From: Elusimicrobiales bacterium
GTDB taxonomy: Bacteria > Elusimicrobiota > Elusimicrobia > Elusimicrobiales > UBA9959
Reading direction: 5' to 3'
Assembly: GCA_028688015.1 (NCBI GenBank)
Contig: JAQTZB010000001.1
Coordinates: 661,663 to 725,662 of the forward strand
Length of the DNA: 64,000 bases
Shown here: positions 54,428 through 62,457 of the stretch, one piece after another
How the letters are laid out: each line of letters starts with the position of its first letter
Position numbering within the stretch: the stretch's first letter is position 1
Made by a program: the position numbers and the translations under genes
The notes under the pieces: generated by a model
What the model saw: only the letters and a program-made list of their open reading frames with translations
The model's database searches: none
What the model was told of the DNA's origin: nothing

Positions 54428-57244
54428 ATGGATAAGATCAAGATCAGCGGCGCCCGCTCGCATAACCTCAAGAACCTCAGCCTGGAGATCCCCAAGAACC
54501 GGCTGGTGGTCATCACGGGCCTGTCCGGCTCCGGCAAATCCACGCTGGCGTTCGACACGGTCTACGCCGAGGGGCAGCGCCGCTACGTGGAGTCCCTCTC
54601 GGCTTACGCCCGCCAGTTCCTGGAGCAGATGGACAAGCCCGACGTGGACTCCATCGAGGGCCTCTCCCCGGCCATCGCCATCCAGCAGCACCATCCGTCC
54701 AAGAACCCGCGCTCCACGGTAGGCACCGTCACCGAGATCTACGACTATCTGCGACTCCTCTTCGCCAAGGCCGGACGGCCGCACTGCCCGTCCTGCCGCA
54801 AGCCCATAAAGGCCTGGTCCGCCCAGGGCATCACCGCAGAGGTGCTGGCCAGGTCCGCCGGCAGGAAAGTCCGCATCCTGGCGCCGCTGGTGCGCGGCCA
54901 CAGCGGCACCTACGAGGAGCTCTTCTCCCGCCTGAAGAAAGCGGGCTTCACCAGGGCCAAGGTGGACGGCAAGTTCTGCCAGCTCGAAGCGCCGCCTCCC
55001 CTCAAGCGCTACGTGAAACACGACATCGACCTCTTCGTGGACGAGTTCACCGTTTCCCCCTCGGACCGCGAGCGGCTGGCCGAGGCCGTGGAGCTGGCGC
55101 TGGCCCAGTCCAAGGGCCTGCTGGCCGTGGAGGACCCGGCCGGCAAGTCGTCGGTGCTCTACAGCGAGAAGAACGCCTGCCCGACCTGCGGCACCAGCTT
55201 TCCGGAGCTCGAGCCGCGCCTGTTCTCGTTCAACTCCCCCCACGGGGCCTGCCAGGAATGCGACGGCCTCGGCATAAAGATAGAGATCGATCCCGACCTC
55301 GTGGTGCCAGACAAAGCCAAGTCGGTCAACGACGGGGCGCTGGAAGCCTGGGCCAACCCGGTCACCACCCGCACGCACCGCTGGAAGGGCTCCTGGTCCG
55401 GCTACTACGCCGATATGCTCAAGACAGCGGCGGAGGCTAACGGCATAGATCTGGACGCCCCTTGGAAGGACCTGCCCAAGGCCCACCGCGAGATGCTGCT
55501 GAACGGCGTGGGTGACTTCGAGGGCGTGGTGACCAACCTCAAGCGCCGCCACACCGAGAGCGAATCCGATTTCGTCAAGGAAGAGATCTATACTAAGTTC
55601 ATGCAGGAGACGGTCTGCCCTTCCTGCAAAGGGCTGCGGCTCAAGCCGGAAGCCCTGAGCGTGATCGTGGACGGCCGGAACATAGCGCAGATGGCGGCGC
55701 TGCCCATAGCGGCCGCGCTGAAGGCCATGGCCGCCCCGGAGCTGACCGAGACCGAAAGGACTATCGCCCGCCTTATCCTCAAGGAGATAAATTCCCGTCT
55801 GAACTTCCTCAACGACGTGGGCCTCGGCTACATCTCCATGGACCGCCGCTCGGAAACTCTCTCGGGCGGCGAGGCGCAGCGCATCCAGCTGGCCACGCAA
55901 ATCGGCTCCGGCCTGACCGGCGTGCTCTACGTGCTCGACGAACCGACGATAGGCCTGCACCAGCGCGACAACGCCAAGCTGATCAACACCCTCAAGTCGC
56001 TGCGCGACATCGGCAACACGCTGCTGGTCGTGGAGCACGATGAGGCGGTCATCCGCGGCGCCGACCATGTCATAGACCTCGGCCCGGGGGCGGGCCTGGC
56101 CGGCGGGTATATCGTGGCGCAGGGCACCCCGGCCGAGATCGTTAAGAATAAGAAGTCGGTCACCGGCCCCTTCCTCAGCGGCGAGCGTTCCACCACCGTG
56201 GCCCGCGAACAGCGCCGCCACACCGGCAAATTCCTGGAATTCACGGGCGCTAAGCAGTTCAACCTGAAGGATATCGACGTGAAGATCCCTCTGGGACTGT
56301 TCGTCAGCATCTGCGGCGTCTCCGGCTCCGGCAAGTCAACGCTGCTCTACGAGATCGTCTACAAGGCCCTGGCGCGCGAACTCTACAAGTCCAAGGAAGC
56401 CCCGGGCGCCTTCCGCTCCATGAAGGGCGCTGCCCAGATAGACAAGGTCATCATCGTGGACCAGTCCCCGATCGGCCGCACCCCGCGCTCCAACCCGTCC
56501 ACCTACAGCGGCGTCTTCAACCACATCCGCGACCTCTTCGCGCAGCTGCCCGAGGCCAAGCGCCGCGGCTACGAGCCCGGCCGCTTCTCGTTCAACGTCA
56601 AAGGCGGCCGCTGCGAGGCCTGTCAGGGCGACGGCACGATCAAGATCCAGATGCAGTTCCTGCCCGACGTCTACGTCAAGTGCGACGAATGCGGCGGCAA
56701 GCGCTTCAACGACGATACCCTGGCGGTCAAGTTCAAGGGAAAGAGCATCTCCGACGTACTGGAACTCTCGGTGGAGGAGGCGCGGGGCGTTTTTTCCGAA
56801 ATCCCGCGCATCTCTAAGATCCTCGCCACCATGAGCGAGGTCGGGTTGGACTACCTGAAGCTGGGCCAGAGCGCCACCACGCTGTCCGGCGGCGAGGCGC
56901 AGCGCCTGAAACTGGCTGAGCAGCTGGCCCGCCGCGCCACAGGCCGCACGCTCTACATTCTCGACGAGCCCACCACCGGTCTGCACTTCGCGGACGTCGA
57001 GAAGCTGCTCCAGGTCCTCCACCGCCTCTCCGAGGCCGGCAACACCGTGCTGGTGATAGAACACAATCTGGACGTCATCGCCGCTTCGGACTGGCTGATA
57101 GAGCTGGGTCCCGAGGGCGGCGACGCCGGCGGCCGGCTCGTTTTCTCCGGCCCCGTCTGCGACGTGCTCAAAGCCCGCGGCTCCCACACCGGCGCCTACC
57201 TCAAGGAGCACCTGGACCTGAAGCGGTCCGGCACCTGCGCATGA
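54428..57244 (+). CDS. uvrA: Excinuclease ABC subunit A
   Basis: A 938-residue damage-recognition ATPase of nucleotide excision repair. Walker A of the first ATPase is GLSGSGKSTL (31-40), the second is CGVSGSGKSTLL near 622. Zinc modules are CPTCGTSFPELEPRLFSFN and CEACQGDG ... CDECGGKRFND. The two ABC signatures are SGGEAQRIQLATQIG near 480 and LSGGEAQRLKLAEQL near 820. Full-length and typical. Its end overlaps the glycosyltransferase gene by 4 nt (ATGA), so repair and glycan genes are read together. Confidence 0.97.
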   Translation: MDKIKISGARSHNLKNLSLEIPKNRLVVITGLSGSGKSTLAFDTVYAEGQRRYVESLSAYARQFLEQMDKPDVDSIEGLSPAIAIQQHHPSKNPRSTVGTVTEIYDYLRLLFAKAGRPHCPSCRKPIKAWSAQGITAEVLARSAGRKVRILAPLVRGHSGTYEELFSRLKKAGFTRAKVDGKFCQLEAPPPLKRYVKHDIDLFVDEFTVSPSDRERLAEAVELALAQSKGLLAVEDPAGKSSVLYSEKNACPTCGTSFPELEPRLFSFNSPHGACQECDGLGIKIEIDPDLVVPDKAKSVNDGALEAWANPVTTRTHRWKGSWSGYYADMLKTAAEANGIDLDAPWKDLPKAHREMLLNGVGDFEGVVTNLKRRHTESESDFVKEEIYTKFMQETVCPSCKGLRLKPEALSVIVDGRNIAQMAALPIAAALKAMAAPELTETERTIARLILKEINSRLNFLNDVGLGYISMDRRSETLSGGEAQRIQLATQIGSGLTGVLYVLDEPTIGLHQRDNAKLINTLKSLRDIGNTLLVVEHDEAVIRGADHVIDLGPGAGLAGGYIVAQGTPAEIVKNKKSVTGPFLSGERSTTVAREQRRHTGKFLEFTGAKQFNLKDIDVKIPLGLFVSICGVSGSGKSTLLYEIVYKALARELYKSKEAPGAFRSMKGAAQIDKVIIVDQSPIGRTPRSNPSTYSGVFNHIRDLFAQLPEAKRRGYEPGRFSFNVKGGRCEACQGDGTIKIQMQFLPDVYVKCDECGGKRFNDDTLAVKFKGKSISDVLELSVEEARGVFSEIPRISKILATMSEVGLDYLKLGQSATTLSGGEAQRLKLAEQLARRATGRTLYILDEPTTGLHFADVEKLLQVLHRLSEAGNTVLVIEHNLDVIAASDWLIELGPEGGDAGGRLVFSGPVCDVLKARGSHTGAYLKEHLDLKRSGTCA

Positions 57245-58428
57245 GCCGGGTTCTGCTGGTGGCGCCGCGCTTTCCCTACCCCTCGCTCTCCGGCGGGGAG
57301 AAATGGGCCGCCTCGCTGGCCGCCGGCCTATCGGCGCGGCACGAGGTCTCGCTCTTCTCCTTCGCCGCGCCAGGCGCCGAAGCGCATCAGACGGCGCTGG
57401 CCATGACGCTGGAGGGCAGGCAGTTAAAAAAGATCTACCTGCTGCCAAGGCCCAGCGGCGCCGAGGCCCGCGGACTGCCGGCGCTGCCGGCCCTGTACTG
57501 GTCGGCCGCGGCAGCTGCCCGGCTGGGAGAAGCAGTCCGGGAAACGCGGGCCGAAGTGGTCCACATCCTTTTTTCAGAAATGGCCGGCTACGCCGGGGCG
57601 CTCCCGGCTGACCTTCCCGCCGTCTACACGGAAATAGACTCCAGCTACCTCTTCCCCTGGAAATATTACCTGCGCGAAACCGCCGGGCTTAAAGGCTTCT
57701 TCAAGCCGGGAGAGTTCTTCAAGGCCCGCGCCTATGCCCGCCGTTATTATCCCCGCTTCGACGCAGCCACCTCCATCACGGCCAGCGACGGGCGGGACAT
57801 AGAACCCTATCTTTCCGCCCCGCTGGCGGCCGTAACGCCCAACGCCGTGGCTGCGGCCGACTTCGTGCAGGGCCGGCCCGTTCAAAGGCGCGAGGGAGAG
57901 ATCCTTTTCCTCGGCCATTACCCGCATTACCCCAACGAAGACGCCGGCCTGCGGCTGGCCCGCCGCATTTTCCCGCTGGTCAAGGCGGAGCGCCCCGGCG
58001 CCTCCCTCACCCTGGCCGGCTCCTGTCCGACGGAAGTGGTGAAAGCCCTGGCCGGCGCCGACATAGCAGTTCCCGGCACAGCGGCGGACATCAGGCCCTT
58101 CCTCTGGCGGGCACAGGTCTTTGCCGCACCGGTGCGCTACGGCCTGGGGACCAAGGGCAAGATCCTCGAAGCTTTCGCCGCCGGCCTGCCGGTCGTGGCT
58201 TCGCGCGAGGCCGCGGCCAGCGTGGAAGCCGCGGAGCCGGGGCGGCACCTGCTCTCCGCCGCCTCCGACCGCGACTTCGCGCAGAAAACGGCGCTGCTGC
58301 TGGGCGACGCCGCCCTGCGCGCCCGCCTGGCGGACGCGGCGCTGGAACTCGTAAAGAAAAGCTACGCTTTTGACTCGGTAGTGGCGGCCGTGTCGGGGGT
58401 TTACGGGAAGGTGCTGCATGGCCGCTGA
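57241..58428 (+). CDS. GT4-family glycosyltransferase
   Basis: A 395-residue GT-B glycosyltransferase with an N-terminal Gly-rich acceptor loop (PYPSLSGGEKWAASLAAGL) and the donor-site segment YGLGTKGKILEAFAAGLPVVAS near residue 300 containing the conserved Glu (…KILEAFAAG). A GHYPHYPNEDAG segment near 222 is usual in this branch (often found with sugar-transferring proteins of surface-polymer clusters). The sugar is unknown. It overlaps the radical SAM gene by 11 nt. Confidence 0.87.
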   Translation: MSRVLLVAPRFPYPSLSGGEKWAASLAAGLSARHEVSLFSFAAPGAEAHQTALAMTLEGRQLKKIYLLPRPSGAEARGLPALPALYWSAAAAARLGEAVRETRAEVVHILFSEMAGYAGALPADLPAVYTEIDSSYLFPWKYYLRETAGLKGFFKPGEFFKARAYARRYYPRFDAATSITASDGRDIEPYLSAPLAAVTPNAVAAADFVQGRPVQRREGEILFLGHYPHYPNEDAGLRLARRIFPLVKAERPGASLTLAGSCPTEVVKALAGADIAVPGTAADIRPFLWRAQVFAAPVRYGLGTKGKILEAFAAGLPVVASREAAASVEAAEPGRHLLSAASDRDFAQKTALLLGDAALRARLADAALELVKKSYAFDSVVAAVSGVYGKVLHGR

Positions 58429-59281
58429 AGCCCTGCACCTGGAGTTGCTCCATGCCTGCCCGAGCGCCTGCCTGGCCTGCGACCACAGGAGCGCCGGCCA
58501 GGCCCGCCTGTCCGCGGACGCGCTCGGCCCGCTTTTCTGCTCCCCGCGCTTCAAAGACCTGCGCCTGGTTTCTTTCTCCGGCGGCGAGCCGTTGCTGCAC
58601 CCTGAGTTGGGCGCGATAATTGAAAAGGCGGGCGCTGCTTTCCCCGCCGCGGCGCTGGTTCTCCTCTCCAGCCTTTACGACGGAGGGAAAGCCCTTGCGC
58701 TGCTGCGCTCGCTCCCGCCCCGCACGCTGACGCGCCTGCACCTGGGCTCTTCGCTGGACGGCCCCGCGCCCCTGCACGACAAAGCGCGCGGCCGCCCCGG
58801 TGCTTTCGCCGCCCTGGCGGGGGCCCACGCCGCGATAAAGAAAGAATTCCCGCGCCTTTCCACCGGCTTCACCTTTACCGCCACGCGCCTGAACGCCGGC
58901 AGCTTTTACGAGACCTGGCTGGAGGCAAAAAAGCTGGGCGCGCCGCTCGGCCTGCAGTTCCTGGTGCCGAACGCCAATACCACCGGGCTGGAGCTCCGGG
59001 CCGCCGATAAGAAGGCGCTGACCGCCGGGCTCAAGGCCGTCCTCGCAAAGGCCCCCTCCGCCAACCTCGCCGCGGCGCTGGATTTCCTGGCCGGCAAACC
59101 GGCGCCCGGCCCTTGCGGCGCGGGGACGACTTTCTACCTGCTCGCCCCGGAAGGCCTGTTCTACCTCTGTCCTTTCCACAAGGACATAATCGCCCCGCCC
59201 GGCGGCGAACAGACCCTGCGCCGCCGCCTCCCCCCCGCCTCCCCGTCGTGCGGGGCCTGTTTCCTGCGCTGCGCGCGCTAA
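58418..59281 (+). CDS. Radical SAM protein
   Basis: A 287-residue radical SAM protein with C14-C18-C21 in ACPSACLACD near the N-terminus and FSGGEPLLHPEL near residue 50 for SAM binding. The C-terminus has the Cys cluster CGAG ... LCPFHKD ... CGACFLRC, resembling a short SPASM/twitch region that would hold an auxiliary FeS cluster. Such enzymes modify peptides or carry out sugar and other chemistry. The neighbours (GT4, ABC exporter) make a role in surface-polymer or peptide-natural-product modification plausible. No precursor peptide is seen. Confidence 0.82.
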   Translation: MAAEALHLELLHACPSACLACDHRSAGQARLSADALGPLFCSPRFKDLRLVSFSGGEPLLHPELGAIIEKAGAAFPAAALVLLSSLYDGGKALALLRSLPPRTLTRLHLGSSLDGPAPLHDKARGRPGAFAALAGAHAAIKKEFPRLSTGFTFTATRLNAGSFYETWLEAKKLGAPLGLQFLVPNANTTGLELRAADKKALTAGLKAVLAKAPSANLAAALDFLAGKPAPGPCGAGTTFYLLAPEGLFYLCPFHKDIIAPPGGEQTLRRRLPPASPSCGACFLRCAR

Positions 59282-59292
59282 CGCCGGGGCTT

Positions 59293-59301
59293 TGATATAA
59301 T
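59293..59301 (+). promoter_or_regulatory. Extended -10 promoter of the ABC exporter operon
   Basis: TGA-TATAAT, a perfect extended -10 element, ends 7 nt before the ATG at 59309, leaving no room for a ribosome binding site. The mRNA should be leaderless. Confidence 0.6.
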
Positions 59302-59308
59302 CTTAACT

Positions 59309-60064
59309 ATGAAGCGCGGGGATCTAGGCAAACTTTTTGCGTTGGCGCGGGCCGAGTGGCGGCTGCGGCAGCAGAGCACTTTTCTCGGCTTCCTGTGGAC
59401 GCTGCTCAACCCGGCCCTGATGTTCGCCGTGCTCTACGGGCTGTTCGTTAAATGGCTTGGCCGCGCGCAGGGAGACTACGCGGTCTTCCTGCTGATAGGC
59501 CTCGTCGAGTGGAACTTCTTCGCTTCGGCCACCTCCTACGCGCTCTCGAGCCTGCTGCGCCGCGGGCCGCTGCTCAAAAGCTACCCGCTGCCGCTCGAAG
59601 TCCCCGTGCTTGCCTCCGTGCTGAGCGTCTATTTCTCCCACCTGCTCGAGCTCGCCGCCCTGGGCGCTATCCTCGCCGCCTTCCAGTCTCCGCCTTCCTT
59701 TCCCTGGCTCTGGGTCCTTGTCCTCGACCTGGCCTACCTCGCCCTGGCCGCGGGCGCGGGCCTCTTCCTCGCCGGGCTCTTCGTTTTCTTCTCCGACCTG
59801 GAGCGCATCTGGACCCTCGCCCTTACCGCCGGCTTTTTCCTGACCCCGGTCTTCTACCCGCTTTCAGTGCTGGCGCCGGATAAAGGCGCGCTGCTCGGCT
59901 ACAGCCCGCTCACCGCCGTCATAGAAAGCGCGCGCCTGGCCTTCTCCGGCTCGGCCCCCAGGCCGGAAGCCCTTGGTCTCACGGCGCTCTGGGCCGCCGC
60001 CGCTTTGACCGCGGGCTTCGCGCTGCTGCGCTTCAAGCGGCGGGCCATAGGGGACGCGCTATGA
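59309..60064 (+). CDS. ABC-2 type polysaccharide exporter permease (Wzm-like)
   Basis: A 251-residue membrane protein with six hydrophobic segments and an amphipathic N-terminal part (FALARAEWRLRQQSTFLGFLW, shown as RAEWRLRQQ and FLGFLWTLLNP) as in the permeases of O-antigen, capsule and teichoic acid export (ABC2_membrane). It overlaps the ATPase gene by 4 nt (ATGA), so the two make one transporter. The cargo is unknown; GT4 and radical SAM genes lie just upstream. Confidence 0.88.
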   Translation: MKRGDLGKLFALARAEWRLRQQSTFLGFLWTLLNPALMFAVLYGLFVKWLGRAQGDYAVFLLIGLVEWNFFASATSYALSSLLRRGPLLKSYPLPLEVPVLASVLSVYFSHLLELAALGAILAAFQSPPSFPWLWVLVLDLAYLALAAGAGLFLAGLFVFFSDLERIWTLALTAGFFLTPVFYPLSVLAPDKGALLGYSPLTAVIESARLAFSGSAPRPEALGLTALWAAAALTAGFALLRFKRRAIGDAL

Positions 60065-61650
60065 CCGGCCTCTCCGTAAAGAACATTTCAAAGGCCTACC
60101 GGGTCGAGCTGCCCCGCGAGGACGCCCTCTCGGTACTGATGCGCTTTTTCAGCGGCCGTTCACCCTCGCGCCCTTTCAGCGCGCTCGACGGTATTTCCTT
60201 CGAGCTGAAGCCCGGCACGGCGCTGGCGCTTTGCGGCCGCAACGGCTCCGGCAAGACCACTCTGCTCAAGATCCTCGCCGGCATCACCGAACCGTCCGGC
60301 GGCAGCTGCAGCTATCCGGGCAAGACCGCCTGCCTGCTGGGCTTCGCTTCCATCCTCCAGGACCGGCTGAGCGTCAAGGAGAATGCCCGGCTCTGCGCCG
60401 TCTTCTTCGGCCTGCCAGGCGCTCCCGCCGAGAACGCCGAGCGGGTGATGGCCGCGGCCGGCCTGGCCCACCTGCGCAACGCCCGCGCCGGCGAACTGTC
60501 GGCCGGCATGAAACTGCGCCTGCCGTTCATGGCCGCCCTGGCCTCAGGCGCCGGGCTGTTCCTGATCGACGAGACCCTGGCCGTGGGCGACGCCGGCTTC
60601 AGGGAGCTCTGCCTCTCCAGGCTGAAAGAGCTGCAGCGGGCCGGCGCGATCCTGGTCTTCGCCACCCACGACCACGCGCTCGCGCGCGGCTTCGCCGACC
60701 TGGCGCTCGTGCTCGAAAACGGCCGGCAGGCCTATCTGGGACCCGCCGCCGGGCTGCCGAGCCCCGGCGCAGCGGAGCCGCCCGGCGCGGCTTTCCGCCG
60801 CGGCCTGGAACGGTACTCTTTACTATACGGGAAGCTTAAGGCCGCTGGCTTCAGGCTGGGGGAGGCGCTGCCCGCCTCCGACGAGCAGCTGTTGCTGGTC
60901 CATACACCCGGCTGGCTGGCGCGCCTGAAAGCTGCCGATCTCACCCCCGCGGAAGAAGAGGCGCTGGCGCTGCCTTACTCGAAGCAGATCTTTCCCCTGG
61001 CCTGGCGCATGGCCGGCGGCACCCTGACCGCGGCCCGCGCCGCCCTGGCTTCCGGCCTCGGAGTTTTCGCCCCGGGCGGAGGCCACCACGCCTTCCCCGA
61101 CCGCGGCGAAGGCTTTTGCCCGGTTAACGACATCGCCATCGCGGCCAAGGTCCTGCTGAAAGAGGGCCTGGTCGGAAGTCCGGCCGTTATCGACCTCGAC
61201 GCCCACCAGGGCAACGGCACCGCCTTCATATTCTCCGGCGGGGAGGCAAAAACCTTCTCCGCCCACCGGGCCGGCGGTTACCCCCCGCAGCGGGTGCGCT
61301 CCGCGATGGACCTGGACCTGCCCGACGGGGCGGATGACGCCGTCTACCTGGCGGCGGTGAAGAAGGGGCTGAAAGATTTCCTGGAGCTGGCCAAGCCGGA
61401 CTTCGTGTTCGCGCTCTGCACGGCCGACGCCTGGGAGCAGGACCCGCTGGGCGGGCTCCGCGTTTCGGCCGCCGGGCTTAAAGAGAGGGACGCCTTCCTC
61501 TTCGCCCTGCTGGCGCAAAAGAAGATCCCCGCCTGCTTGCTGCTGGGCGGGGCTTACGGCGAGCCGGTCGGGGCGGCCCAGATCAATTTCAATACCATCG
61601 AGGCCGCGGCCGCGGCCTTTCCGTCATTCGACAAGATCGTAAGCGTATAG
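60061..61650 (+). CDS. ABC ATPase (Wzt-like) fused to histone-deacetylase-superfamily domain
   Basis: A 529-residue two-domain protein. The ATPase (1-240) has Walker A G59-T66 (GRNGSGKT), Q100, signature LSAGM 146-150, Walker B ending D170-E171 in LIDETLAVGD and H203, all typical of Wzt-like O-antigen/capsule ATPases. Residues about 248-529 form an arginase/deacetylase-superfamily domain (AcuC/HDAC type): LLVHTPGWLARLKA, GGGHHAFPDRGEGFC with dyad H342/H343, DLDAHQGNG with zinc ligands D380/H382, third ligand D456 (TADAWEQDPLGGL) and the catalytic Tyr499 (GGAYG). The first strand of the usual HDAC fold seems missing. Normal Wzt proteins carry a sugar-binding domain at this place. It probably deacylates a cytoplasmic glycan or carrier; this is inference. 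Confidence 0.88.
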   Translation: MTGLSVKNISKAYRVELPREDALSVLMRFFSGRSPSRPFSALDGISFELKPGTALALCGRNGSGKTTLLKILAGITEPSGGSCSYPGKTACLLGFASILQDRLSVKENARLCAVFFGLPGAPAENAERVMAAAGLAHLRNARAGELSAGMKLRLPFMAALASGAGLFLIDETLAVGDAGFRELCLSRLKELQRAGAILVFATHDHALARGFADLALVLENGRQAYLGPAAGLPSPGAAEPPGAAFRRGLERYSLLYGKLKAAGFRLGEALPASDEQLLLVHTPGWLARLKAADLTPAEEEALALPYSKQIFPLAWRMAGGTLTAARAALASGLGVFAPGGGHHAFPDRGEGFCPVNDIAIAAKVLLKEGLVGSPAVIDLDAHQGNGTAFIFSGGEAKTFSAHRAGGYPPQRVRSAMDLDLPDGADDAVYLAAVKKGLKDFLELAKPDFVFALCTADAWEQDPLGGLRVSAAGLKERDAFLFALLAQKKIPACLLLGGAYGEPVGAAQINFNTIEAAAAAFPSFDKIVSV

Positions 61651-62457
61651 CCTGTAGACCAGCGCCCGGGAGGCGAAGGCCGGGGCCATAAAGGCCTCCG
61701 TGCCCGAGCCGCTCTTGAGCGCCAGGCGGCCGGCCCAATAAGCCGCCGTCGGGGCGGTCAAGTCCGCCTTTGCGGCCAGGCGCCAGCCCGTACCCGCGCA
61801 GGCGCGCAGGTATTCGGCCTCCGGATGGATAGCCGTAACGTAGGCTTTGTCAGCGAGGACCGCATAACGGCGCCCGGCGGCGTGGTCAGCGTTGCGGACC
61901 CAGGCGATGATCACCAGCCTGGCGCCGGGCTTGGCCGCGCGCGCCGTCTCTGAGAAGAAAACTTTCATGGCCGGCACGTGCTCGGTGGACTCGCAGGCCC
62001 AGACAAGGTCGAAGGTCTTGGGGCGGAAGGGCAGCGCCAGCATGGAAGCCCTGCGAAAAACAACCCGCCCACCCACGCCGGCCGCCCTGGCCGCGGCCCG
62101 CGCCGCGGCGGCCTGGTAGGCGGACAGCGTCACGCCCCGTATCGCCAGGGCCGGGTATTTTTTTGCCAGCAGCAGGCTTGAGCCGCCGCGACCGCACCCG
62201 GCATCCAGCAGGCGGGCGCCCGCGCGGGGGCGGCCCAGGTATTTAAAACCGAATTTAGAGAGCGCCGTCTCCGAGGCGTGGACGGCCAGGTCCGCAGCGG
62301 CGCCGCCCTTCTTTATGCGGCGCAGGTAGGCGGCCCGGTCGAAGACCAGCCCGTTATGGTGGTGGATGACCCCGTCGGCGGCGAGGCGCCAGTTGAAATC
62401 CCTGCGCTTGGAGTCATAAAGCGCGGCCACGCGGCCCAGCCAGGCGGAGGTCTTCAC
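61624..62457 (-). CDS. Class I SAM-dependent methyltransferase
   Basis: A 277-residue methyltransferase with motif I LLDAGCGRGGSS (residues 83-94), motif II-like RRASMLALPF and post-motif AKPGARLVIIAWVRN near 180. Its closest pattern is the UbiE/sterol-tocopherol methyltransferase group (CESTEHVPAMKVFFSETAR near 158). The start is GTG at 62457, overlapping the preceding stop (GTGA). It overlaps the convergent ABC-deacetylase gene by 27 nt at their ends. As the last gene in a run with polyprenyl and furan synthases, it may methylate their product. Confidence 0.87.
   Translation of the reverse strand: MKTSAWLGRVAALYDSKRRDFNWRLAADGVIHHHNGLVFDRAAYLRRIKKGGAAADLAVHASETALSKFGFKYLGRPRAGARLLDAGCGRGGSSLLLAKKYPALAIRGVTLSAYQAAAARAAARAAGVGGRVVFRRASMLALPFRPKTFDLVWACESTEHVPAMKVFFSETARAAKPGARLVIIAWVRNADHAAGRRYAVLADKAYVTAIHPEAEYLRACAGTGWRLAAKADLTAPTAAYWAGRLALKSGSGTEAFMAPAFASRALVYRLYAYDLVE

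Follow-up and report, generated by a model that had tools for sequence, protein, structure and literature searches.

Why does the ATPase of a glycan-type exporter carry a zinc-dependent deacylase? This question is raised by a gene at positions 60061 to 61650 (plus strand) of the window, the whole stretch of 64,000 nucleotides (nt) analyzed here, which was taken from contig JAQTZB010000001.1 of an Elusimicrobiales bacterium (assembly GCA_028688015.1, positions 661,663 to 725,662). A preliminary description, made from the letters alone, had reported a Wzt-like ATP-binding cassette (ABC) ATPase fused to an enzyme of the histone deacetylase (HDAC) superfamily and had interpreted deacylation as a licence for export. 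The fusion is real and is conserved within one family of uncultured Elusimicrobiota. It may deacylate the cargo of its own exporter at the pump entrance on the cytoplasmic side, this cargo being non-peptide and probably an isoprenoid-linked glycoconjugate, a reading that comes near to being evenly balanced.

Architecture of the fusion

The gene is a single open reading frame (ORF) that starts with the ATG at 60061, ends with the stop codon at 61650, and encodes 529 amino acids (aa). The ORF, the Pfam matches, and 35 fusion proteins all bear out the uninterrupted joining of ATPase and deacylase that had been described. In the Pfam search, ABC_tran matched residues 42 to 173 with 71.8 bits (cut-off, 25) and Hist_deacetyl residues 251 to 501 with 143.4 bits (curated cut-off, 27.9). 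The ATPase half comprises residues 1 to 222 (60061 to 60726, plus strand) and contains the ABC motifs seen in the alignment of the 35 fusions; it is followed by a linker of variable sequence, residues 223 to 242 (60727 to 60786, plus strand), and by the deacylase half, residues 243 to 529 (60787 to 61647, plus strand), which was recognized by Pfam and structure comparison. A separate translation of the deacylase from a start within the linker was considered and rejected: a Met or Leu is located there, but of 15 orthologues only 8 have ATG as its codon, and no consistent ribosome site was seen.

Residues G64, K65, S147, G149, D170, E171, and H203 are conserved in all 35 fusions; we take K65 to belong to Walker A, S147 and G149 to the C-loop, D170 and E171 to Walker B, and H203 to the H-loop. 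With these ABC motifs and an adjacent gene for an ABC-2 permease, the fusion is an exporter ATPase of the Wzt/TagH type. The Pfam search of the fusion gave no match to the Wzt_C domain (PF14524) up to an E value of 0.001, in agreement with the preliminary description, and none to a peptidase C39 domain.

In the deacylase half, the alignment placed the gatekeeper position G341 and the catalytic H342 and H343 at 61081 to 61089, the zinc ligand position D456 at 61426 to 61428, and the position of the catalytic Tyr, Y499, at 61555 to 61557; D378, D380, and H382 of the zinc site form a DLDAH motif at 61192 to 61206, visible in the translation and in the alignment (all plus strand). All seven catalytic residues are thus at the positions reported before. 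H342, H343, D378, and H382 are conserved in 35/35 fusions, and D380, D456, and Y499 in 34/35, the exception being P0034, which is without all three. The nearest solved relatives of this half in a fold comparison against the structures of the PDB are class IV enzymes, which, judged by such relatedness, makes it a class IV (HDAC11-like) deacylase.

Occurrence and conservation

The 35 fusion proteins from the protein searches, which include that of the window, are P0001 to P0031, P0033, P0034, P0038, and P0121. In the first search, the best 120 of 1237 matches were considered, and full-length relatives among them had 36 to 89% identity to the fusion and came from many contigs; one further fusion, P0121, came from another search that used four deep relatives as seeds. 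The source names of P0007 and P0016 give Elusimicrobia. Not counted as fusions were P0037 and P0046, which appeared chimeric by eye, and P0032, which is encoded on a short contig and consists of 296 aa with a deacylase part of the fusion type.

In the phylum, a full fusion without internal stop was present in 16 of 340 whole genomes, all of them in the family of the window, with 13 of the 32 genomes of its own genus, two of four of genus g13, and the single genome of genus g2; the fusion of genome G133 appeared as two profile matches inside one ORF. P0121 is outside the profile used on these genomes, and no fitting full-length match for P0031, P0033, P0034, or P0038 was among the matches listed for them. 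One of the at least 80 loci of a further contig scan was a fusion (L005, on a contig that equals that of G146 in length). The fusion-bearing contigs range from 5.2 kb to 808 kb, that of the window having 808,387 bases. An architecture restricted to one assembly, which the preliminary description had named as the outcome that would speak against it, was consequently not what these 16 genomes and 35 proteins revealed.

The ratio of nonsynonymous to synonymous substitution rates (dN/dS, NG86), calculated for nine pairs among 15 ORFs with that of G157 left out, was 0.06 to 0.29 for the ATPase half and 0.14 to 0.25 for the deacylase half. Purifying selection acts on both halves.

The two domains are already reflected in an automatic annotation, the name of P0025. 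No description of an ABC-HDAC fusion was found in the literature searched, most subscription journals being outside that search; the available texts of PMC11532494 and PMC13325672 do not contain the term "ABC transporter". The class IV assignment, the change in the active-site rim, and the link to a UbiA gene were absent from the preliminary description.

The active-site rim of the deacylase half

The rim of the active site was compared in an alignment of 135 rows, in which the positions of the rim residues were assigned by alignment and the 92 unfused relatives had been picked by similarity to the fusions. A Glu in loop 2 (L2) is present in 77/92 unfused relatives and in 0/35 fusions, which possess at this position Ala (22), Val (4), Ser (3), Leu (2), or one each of Asp, Gln, Met, and Ile. 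The row of the reference 9rje shows Ala in this column where the paper has Gly for clade A, which means that this row may be one or two columns off. In the window, the position is A303 (60967 to 60969, plus strand), at the place of the rim Glu of class IV clade B, Glu94 in human HDAC11 (role from PMC13325672). A His in loop 1 (L1) is present in 90/92 unfused and 0/35 fused rows; the fusion rows start at residue 243, near the column of this His, and the uncut listing likewise shows no fusion with it. The gatekeeper is Gly in 32/35 fusions, and Phe (52), Ser (17), Thr (9), Gly (5), Ala (5), or another residue (4) in the 92 unfused relatives. All seven catalytic residues are present in 92/92 unfused rows and in 5/5 rows of split forms (P0035, P0036, G116, P0122, and P0123).

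Because the catalytic set was kept while the rim residues were altered, the fused clade has changed the mouth of the substrate tunnel. The Glu in L2 and the His in L1 are rim features tied to peptide substrates in the consulted part of PMC13325672, and their change argues against peptide substrates and for a rim of the non-peptide type. The features of class IV clade B, the rim Glu94, the HPFD motif, and a Phe/Tyr gatekeeper, are replaced by Ala303, no His in L1, and Gly341. In the HDAC tree (52 of the 135 rows: 17/35 fusions, 27/92 unfused relatives, five split or candidate rows, and three references), the fusions were located outside both supported clades, A (9rje, 9gkv) and B (9rjd), each represented by reference rows that are partial segments; with these three partial rows, a union of the fusions with clade A or B was not rejected (P value of the approximately unbiased test [p-AU], 0.28 and 0.167, respectively).

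Gene neighborhood and linkage

The fusion is the last gene of a tight run on the plus strand. It overlaps by 4 nt with the gene of the ABC-2 type permease (59309 to 60064; 251 aa; identified by Pfam), which is separated by a 27-nt gap from the gene of a radical SAM protein (58418 to 59281; 287 aa), in which five additional Cys residues near the C terminus are conserved. The latter overlaps by 11 nt with the gene of a GT4 glycosyltransferase (57241 to 58428), for which the nearest NCBIfam model was TIGR03087 with 154.8 bits, below the cut-off of 316.65, and which overlaps in turn by 4 nt with uvrA. Linkage was counted in the 59 genomes of the window's family. The permease was present in 16/16 fusion genomes, with at least 60% identity also in G122 and G145, and in a weaker form in G125, G147, and G151; GT4 in 16/16 fusion genomes, G122, and G145, and at 35 to 36% in G125 and G147. 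The radical SAM gene was found in 14/16 fusion genomes, G122, and G145; the loci of G133 and G157 lack it. The genes of permease, GT4, and radical SAM protein next to the fusion, as named in the preliminary description, do form one tight run, although the radical SAM gene is not a constant companion.

A UbiA-type prenyltransferase was detected by profile (E value, 1e-8) in 16 genomes of the family, namely, 15/16 fusion genomes and G145, and in none of the other 42, including G122 and G116. The fusion genome without a match is G133, where the fusion contig is 5.2 kb long; G145 is a fragmented genome with orthologues of GT4, radical SAM protein, and permease on short contigs. The UbiA gene was within 7 kb of the fusion in 15/15 cases, overlapped the 3' end of the fusion in three, and preceded the permease gene in G127. 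In part of the loci, its surroundings also encode polyprenyl synthases, a B12-type radical SAM protein, an MfnB-like protein, and a methyltransferase. In the window, a convergent methyltransferase gene (61624 to 62457, minus strand; 277 aa) starts an isoprenoid-type run that reaches the UbiA gene past the end of the window, and 10/16 fusion loci have this cluster. On the longer contig piece (L003:7286-14704, from window position 61624 onward), the run encodes a GPP-methyltransferase-like protein, a 175-aa protein, an MfnB-like protein, three polyprenyl synthases, a B12-type radical SAM protein, and a UbiA-like protein. Beside it, L003:14758-18031 encodes a radical SAM protein, a PqqD-like protein, a FabD-like acyltransferase, and a weakly HprK-related protein, and these genes recur in part of the fusion loci. 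A second pair of GT4 and radical SAM genes together with a permease-ATPase pair without deacylase is present in G125, G133, and G147 (L155:1-11721, L156 to L159), so that G133 carries a deacylase-free permease-ATPase set besides the fusion operon.

Comparison of the loci also revealed a TATAAT, mostly as TGATATAAT, 6 to 7 nt upstream of the permease start in 14/16 fusion loci and in G122. In the window, TGATATAAT and the 7 nt up to the permease ATG form an extended −10-like element (59293 to 59308, plus strand). It was not seen in G102 or in G157, where the permease start was placed roughly, and a −35/−10 promoter scan found no promoter. The conserved position of this element near the start codon suggests a leaderless transcript.

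Possible function of the fusion

Two copies of the fusion under a permease dimer would equip each exporter with two deacylase domains, placed where other Wzt proteins have the domain that reads the glycan end. An acyl group would be removed there, at the cytoplasmic mouth, from a glycosylated and probably isoprenoid-linked cargo, and this hydrolysis may occur before or along with translocation, as in peptidase-containing ABC transporters (PCATs). The cargo would be a non-peptide and probably isoprenoid-linked glycoconjugate because genes for GT4, UbiA, and usually a radical SAM protein are nearby and because the rim residues tied to peptide substrates are missing. We infer activity, substrate, coupling, and order of events from the fusion itself, its conservation, its motifs, its linkage, and the change of its rim. 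That it represents a new class of processing exporter, in which a class IV HDAC borne by the ATPase deacylates an isoprenoid-linked glycan during its exit, is a possibility proposed here tentatively.

Several observations weigh against a deacylation of the exporter's own cargo. The predicted structure (predicted template modeling score, 0.60) leaves the orientation of the two domains unfixed. In the genome of the window, 6.6 kb separate the fusion from the UbiA gene, which is on the opposite strand and outside the window, and the linkage counts do not represent independent events since the genomes are related. Moreover, the deacylase exists without the ATPase half in G116, P0122, P0035, and P0036, the locus of G122 encodes GT4, radical SAM protein, permease, and an orthologous ATPase without a deacylase, and P0034 combines an intact ATPase with a dead deacylase. 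G122 and the four cases lacking the ATPase half argue against an export licence in the strict sense, as imagined in the preliminary description.

The trees indicate how such forms may have arisen. In the HDAC tree, the fusions form one clade (support, 96/88) with P0121 as the deepest member and with G116/P0122 (99/92), P0035, and P0036 inside. The N terminus of P0036 is a stretch of permease (57.7% identity over 52 aa; E value, 5e-14), consistent with a deletion that joined the permease to the deacylase; the N terminus of P0035 was considered as another permease remnant and gave no significant match. In G116, uvrA and the free deacylase gene downstream of it share 4 nt, and searches of the family genomes did not find matches to permease, radical SAM protein, or GT4 there. 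G116 and P0122 retain the L1 His that is absent from the fusions. G116 may have lost the ATPase half or may represent the state before fusion; the tree nests it within the fusions (99/92), and the prefusion alternative was not rejected (p-AU, 0.105).

In the ATPase tree (49 rows, 17/35 fusions among them), the free ATPase of G122 was nested among the fusions (99/95), and the alternative was rejected (p-AU, 0.019), which supports a loss of the deacylase half in G122. The gene that follows this ATPase presumably encodes a subunit of glycyl-tRNA synthetase. The ATPase of P0121, a fusion for which an independent origin was considered, grouped (90/90) with six paralogous ATPases, and L136, L138, L140, and L141 among these carry a DegT-like domain; a single clade for all fusions including P0121 was not rejected (p-AU, 0.479). 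For P0034 and for P0036, whose live deacylase follows a permease stub, the longest contig listed has 24,468 bases in both cases; the two proteins therefore probably share this contig, and a division of labor between two copies would be likely. Taken from these sequences, the split states argue that the one-chain form is favored and not obligatory, and P0034 argues that at least one lineage managed without catalysis in the fusion chain.

A free class IV paralogue is encoded on another contig of G122 and in the genome of the window, and such paralogues are common in the phylum. The paralogue gene is located directly after lnt, the gene of the apolipoprotein N-acyltransferase, in 9/12 loci with short flanks (L103 to L114), and the order secA-lnt-deacylase is present in 4/4 wide loci (L004:8275-13480, L132, L133, and L134), three of these genomes being also among the 12.

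A C-terminal domain similar to DegT/DnrJ/EryC1 is present on 7 of 13 long ORFs of paralogous Wzt-like ATPases scanned (L156:4308-6632, L158:6851-9169, L155:968-3031, L161:990-2867, L165:2029-4554, L166:1989-4463, and L167:2-2107), and a description of such an ABC-DegT fusion was not found in the literature searched. The region of the usual Schiff-base Lys is, by eye, not conserved in these domains, so that they may be readers and not enzymes. This degenerate appearance favors recognition over catalysis at the C-terminal position, which is a further point against a cargo-processing deacylase. Given this appearance, a scheme in which DegT enzyme and HDAC alike would provide the cargo with a free amine was dropped.

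Alternative explanations

The deacylase may be active on another target, either lysines of the exporter or of other proteins or a small metabolite, for instance a polyamine, with the fusion setting its location or dose. This is rather unlikely and has nevertheless to be taken seriously: according to PMC11532494, other relatives of HDACs in bacteria remove acyl groups from lysines and polyamines, the deacylase halves that persist without an ATPase indicate a use of their own, and free paralogues are widespread. It is opposed by the loss of the rim Glu and the L1 His from every fusion, which argues against peptides, and by the linkage to the genes of GT4, permease, and UbiA.

Alternatively, the deacylase half may be a module that binds the cargo like the C-terminal domain of Wzt, its catalysis being secondary or dispensable. 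The position of the deacylase, the retention of the fusion in P0034 despite three lost catalytic residues, and the DegT-like domains on the paralogous ATPases would agree with such a module, but every catalytic residue is kept in 34/35 fusions, and P0035, P0036, G116, and P0122 keep them even without a pump, as do all five split rows when P0123 is included, which makes this explanation improbable. An artefact of assembly or gene calling that joined two neighboring genes can practically be dismissed, since, although the chimeric-looking contigs of P0037 and P0046 demonstrate that such events occur in the data, it was rejected on the recurrence of the stop-free ORF in separate genomes and on contigs of very different length, on the number of fusion proteins, and on dN/dS values below 0.3 in both halves.

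With cargo deacylation as the preferred reading, a deacylase fused to an exporter near genes of a glycosyltransferase and a prenyltransferase narrows the search for class IV substrates to exported glycoconjugates. The consulted part of PMC13325672 states that the substrates of peptide-inactive class IV HDACs are unidentified; if the reading is true, it would provide the first physiological substrate class for these enzymes, and the C-terminal position of Wzt could house a working enzyme in place of a reader. The HDAC and DegT-like domains suggest that enzyme-derived modules are swappable at the C terminus of glycan-exporter ATPases, and processing and export may then be performed by one machine.

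Comparison with known systems

Among class IV HDACs, Chlamydomonas HDAC11-1 (9rje), Leptospira HDAC11 (9gz5/9rjd), and Vibrio HdaH (9gkv/9gky) were compared. The deacylase described here differs from them by its fusion to an ATPase, by a shorter N-terminal part (residue 239 of the model corresponds to residue 26 of the 9gkv chain in the structural alignment), and by the Gly gatekeeper that prevails in the fusions together with the missing rim Glu.

The closest relative of the other half is the ATPase of the Wzm/Wzt O-antigen exporter, as in Aquifex aeolicus WzmWzt (6m96, 7k2t, and 8dku). An ABC-2 permease gene adjoins in both cases, the ATPase half matched 6amx, 6m96, and 8dku with 98.7 to 100 bits over residues of about 36 to 222, and the fold is alike (6m96; TM-score of 0.82 by target length). 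The carbohydrate-binding domain of WzmWzt recognizes the modified end of the lipid-linked O antigen, as given in the consulted part of PMC9445017; in the fusion, a zinc deacylase occupies the place of this C-terminal domain, PF14524 not being found.

PCATs resemble the fusion by analogy, as exporters that contain a hydrolase and would process the cargo on the cytoplasmic side, and cleavage by PCAT1 is tied to the transport cycle in the part of PMC6959990 consulted. Their hydrolase is a peptidase domain that acts on peptides, whereas the fusion is not a member of the PCATs and would use a C-terminal zinc deacylase on an exporter ATPase of the glycan type.
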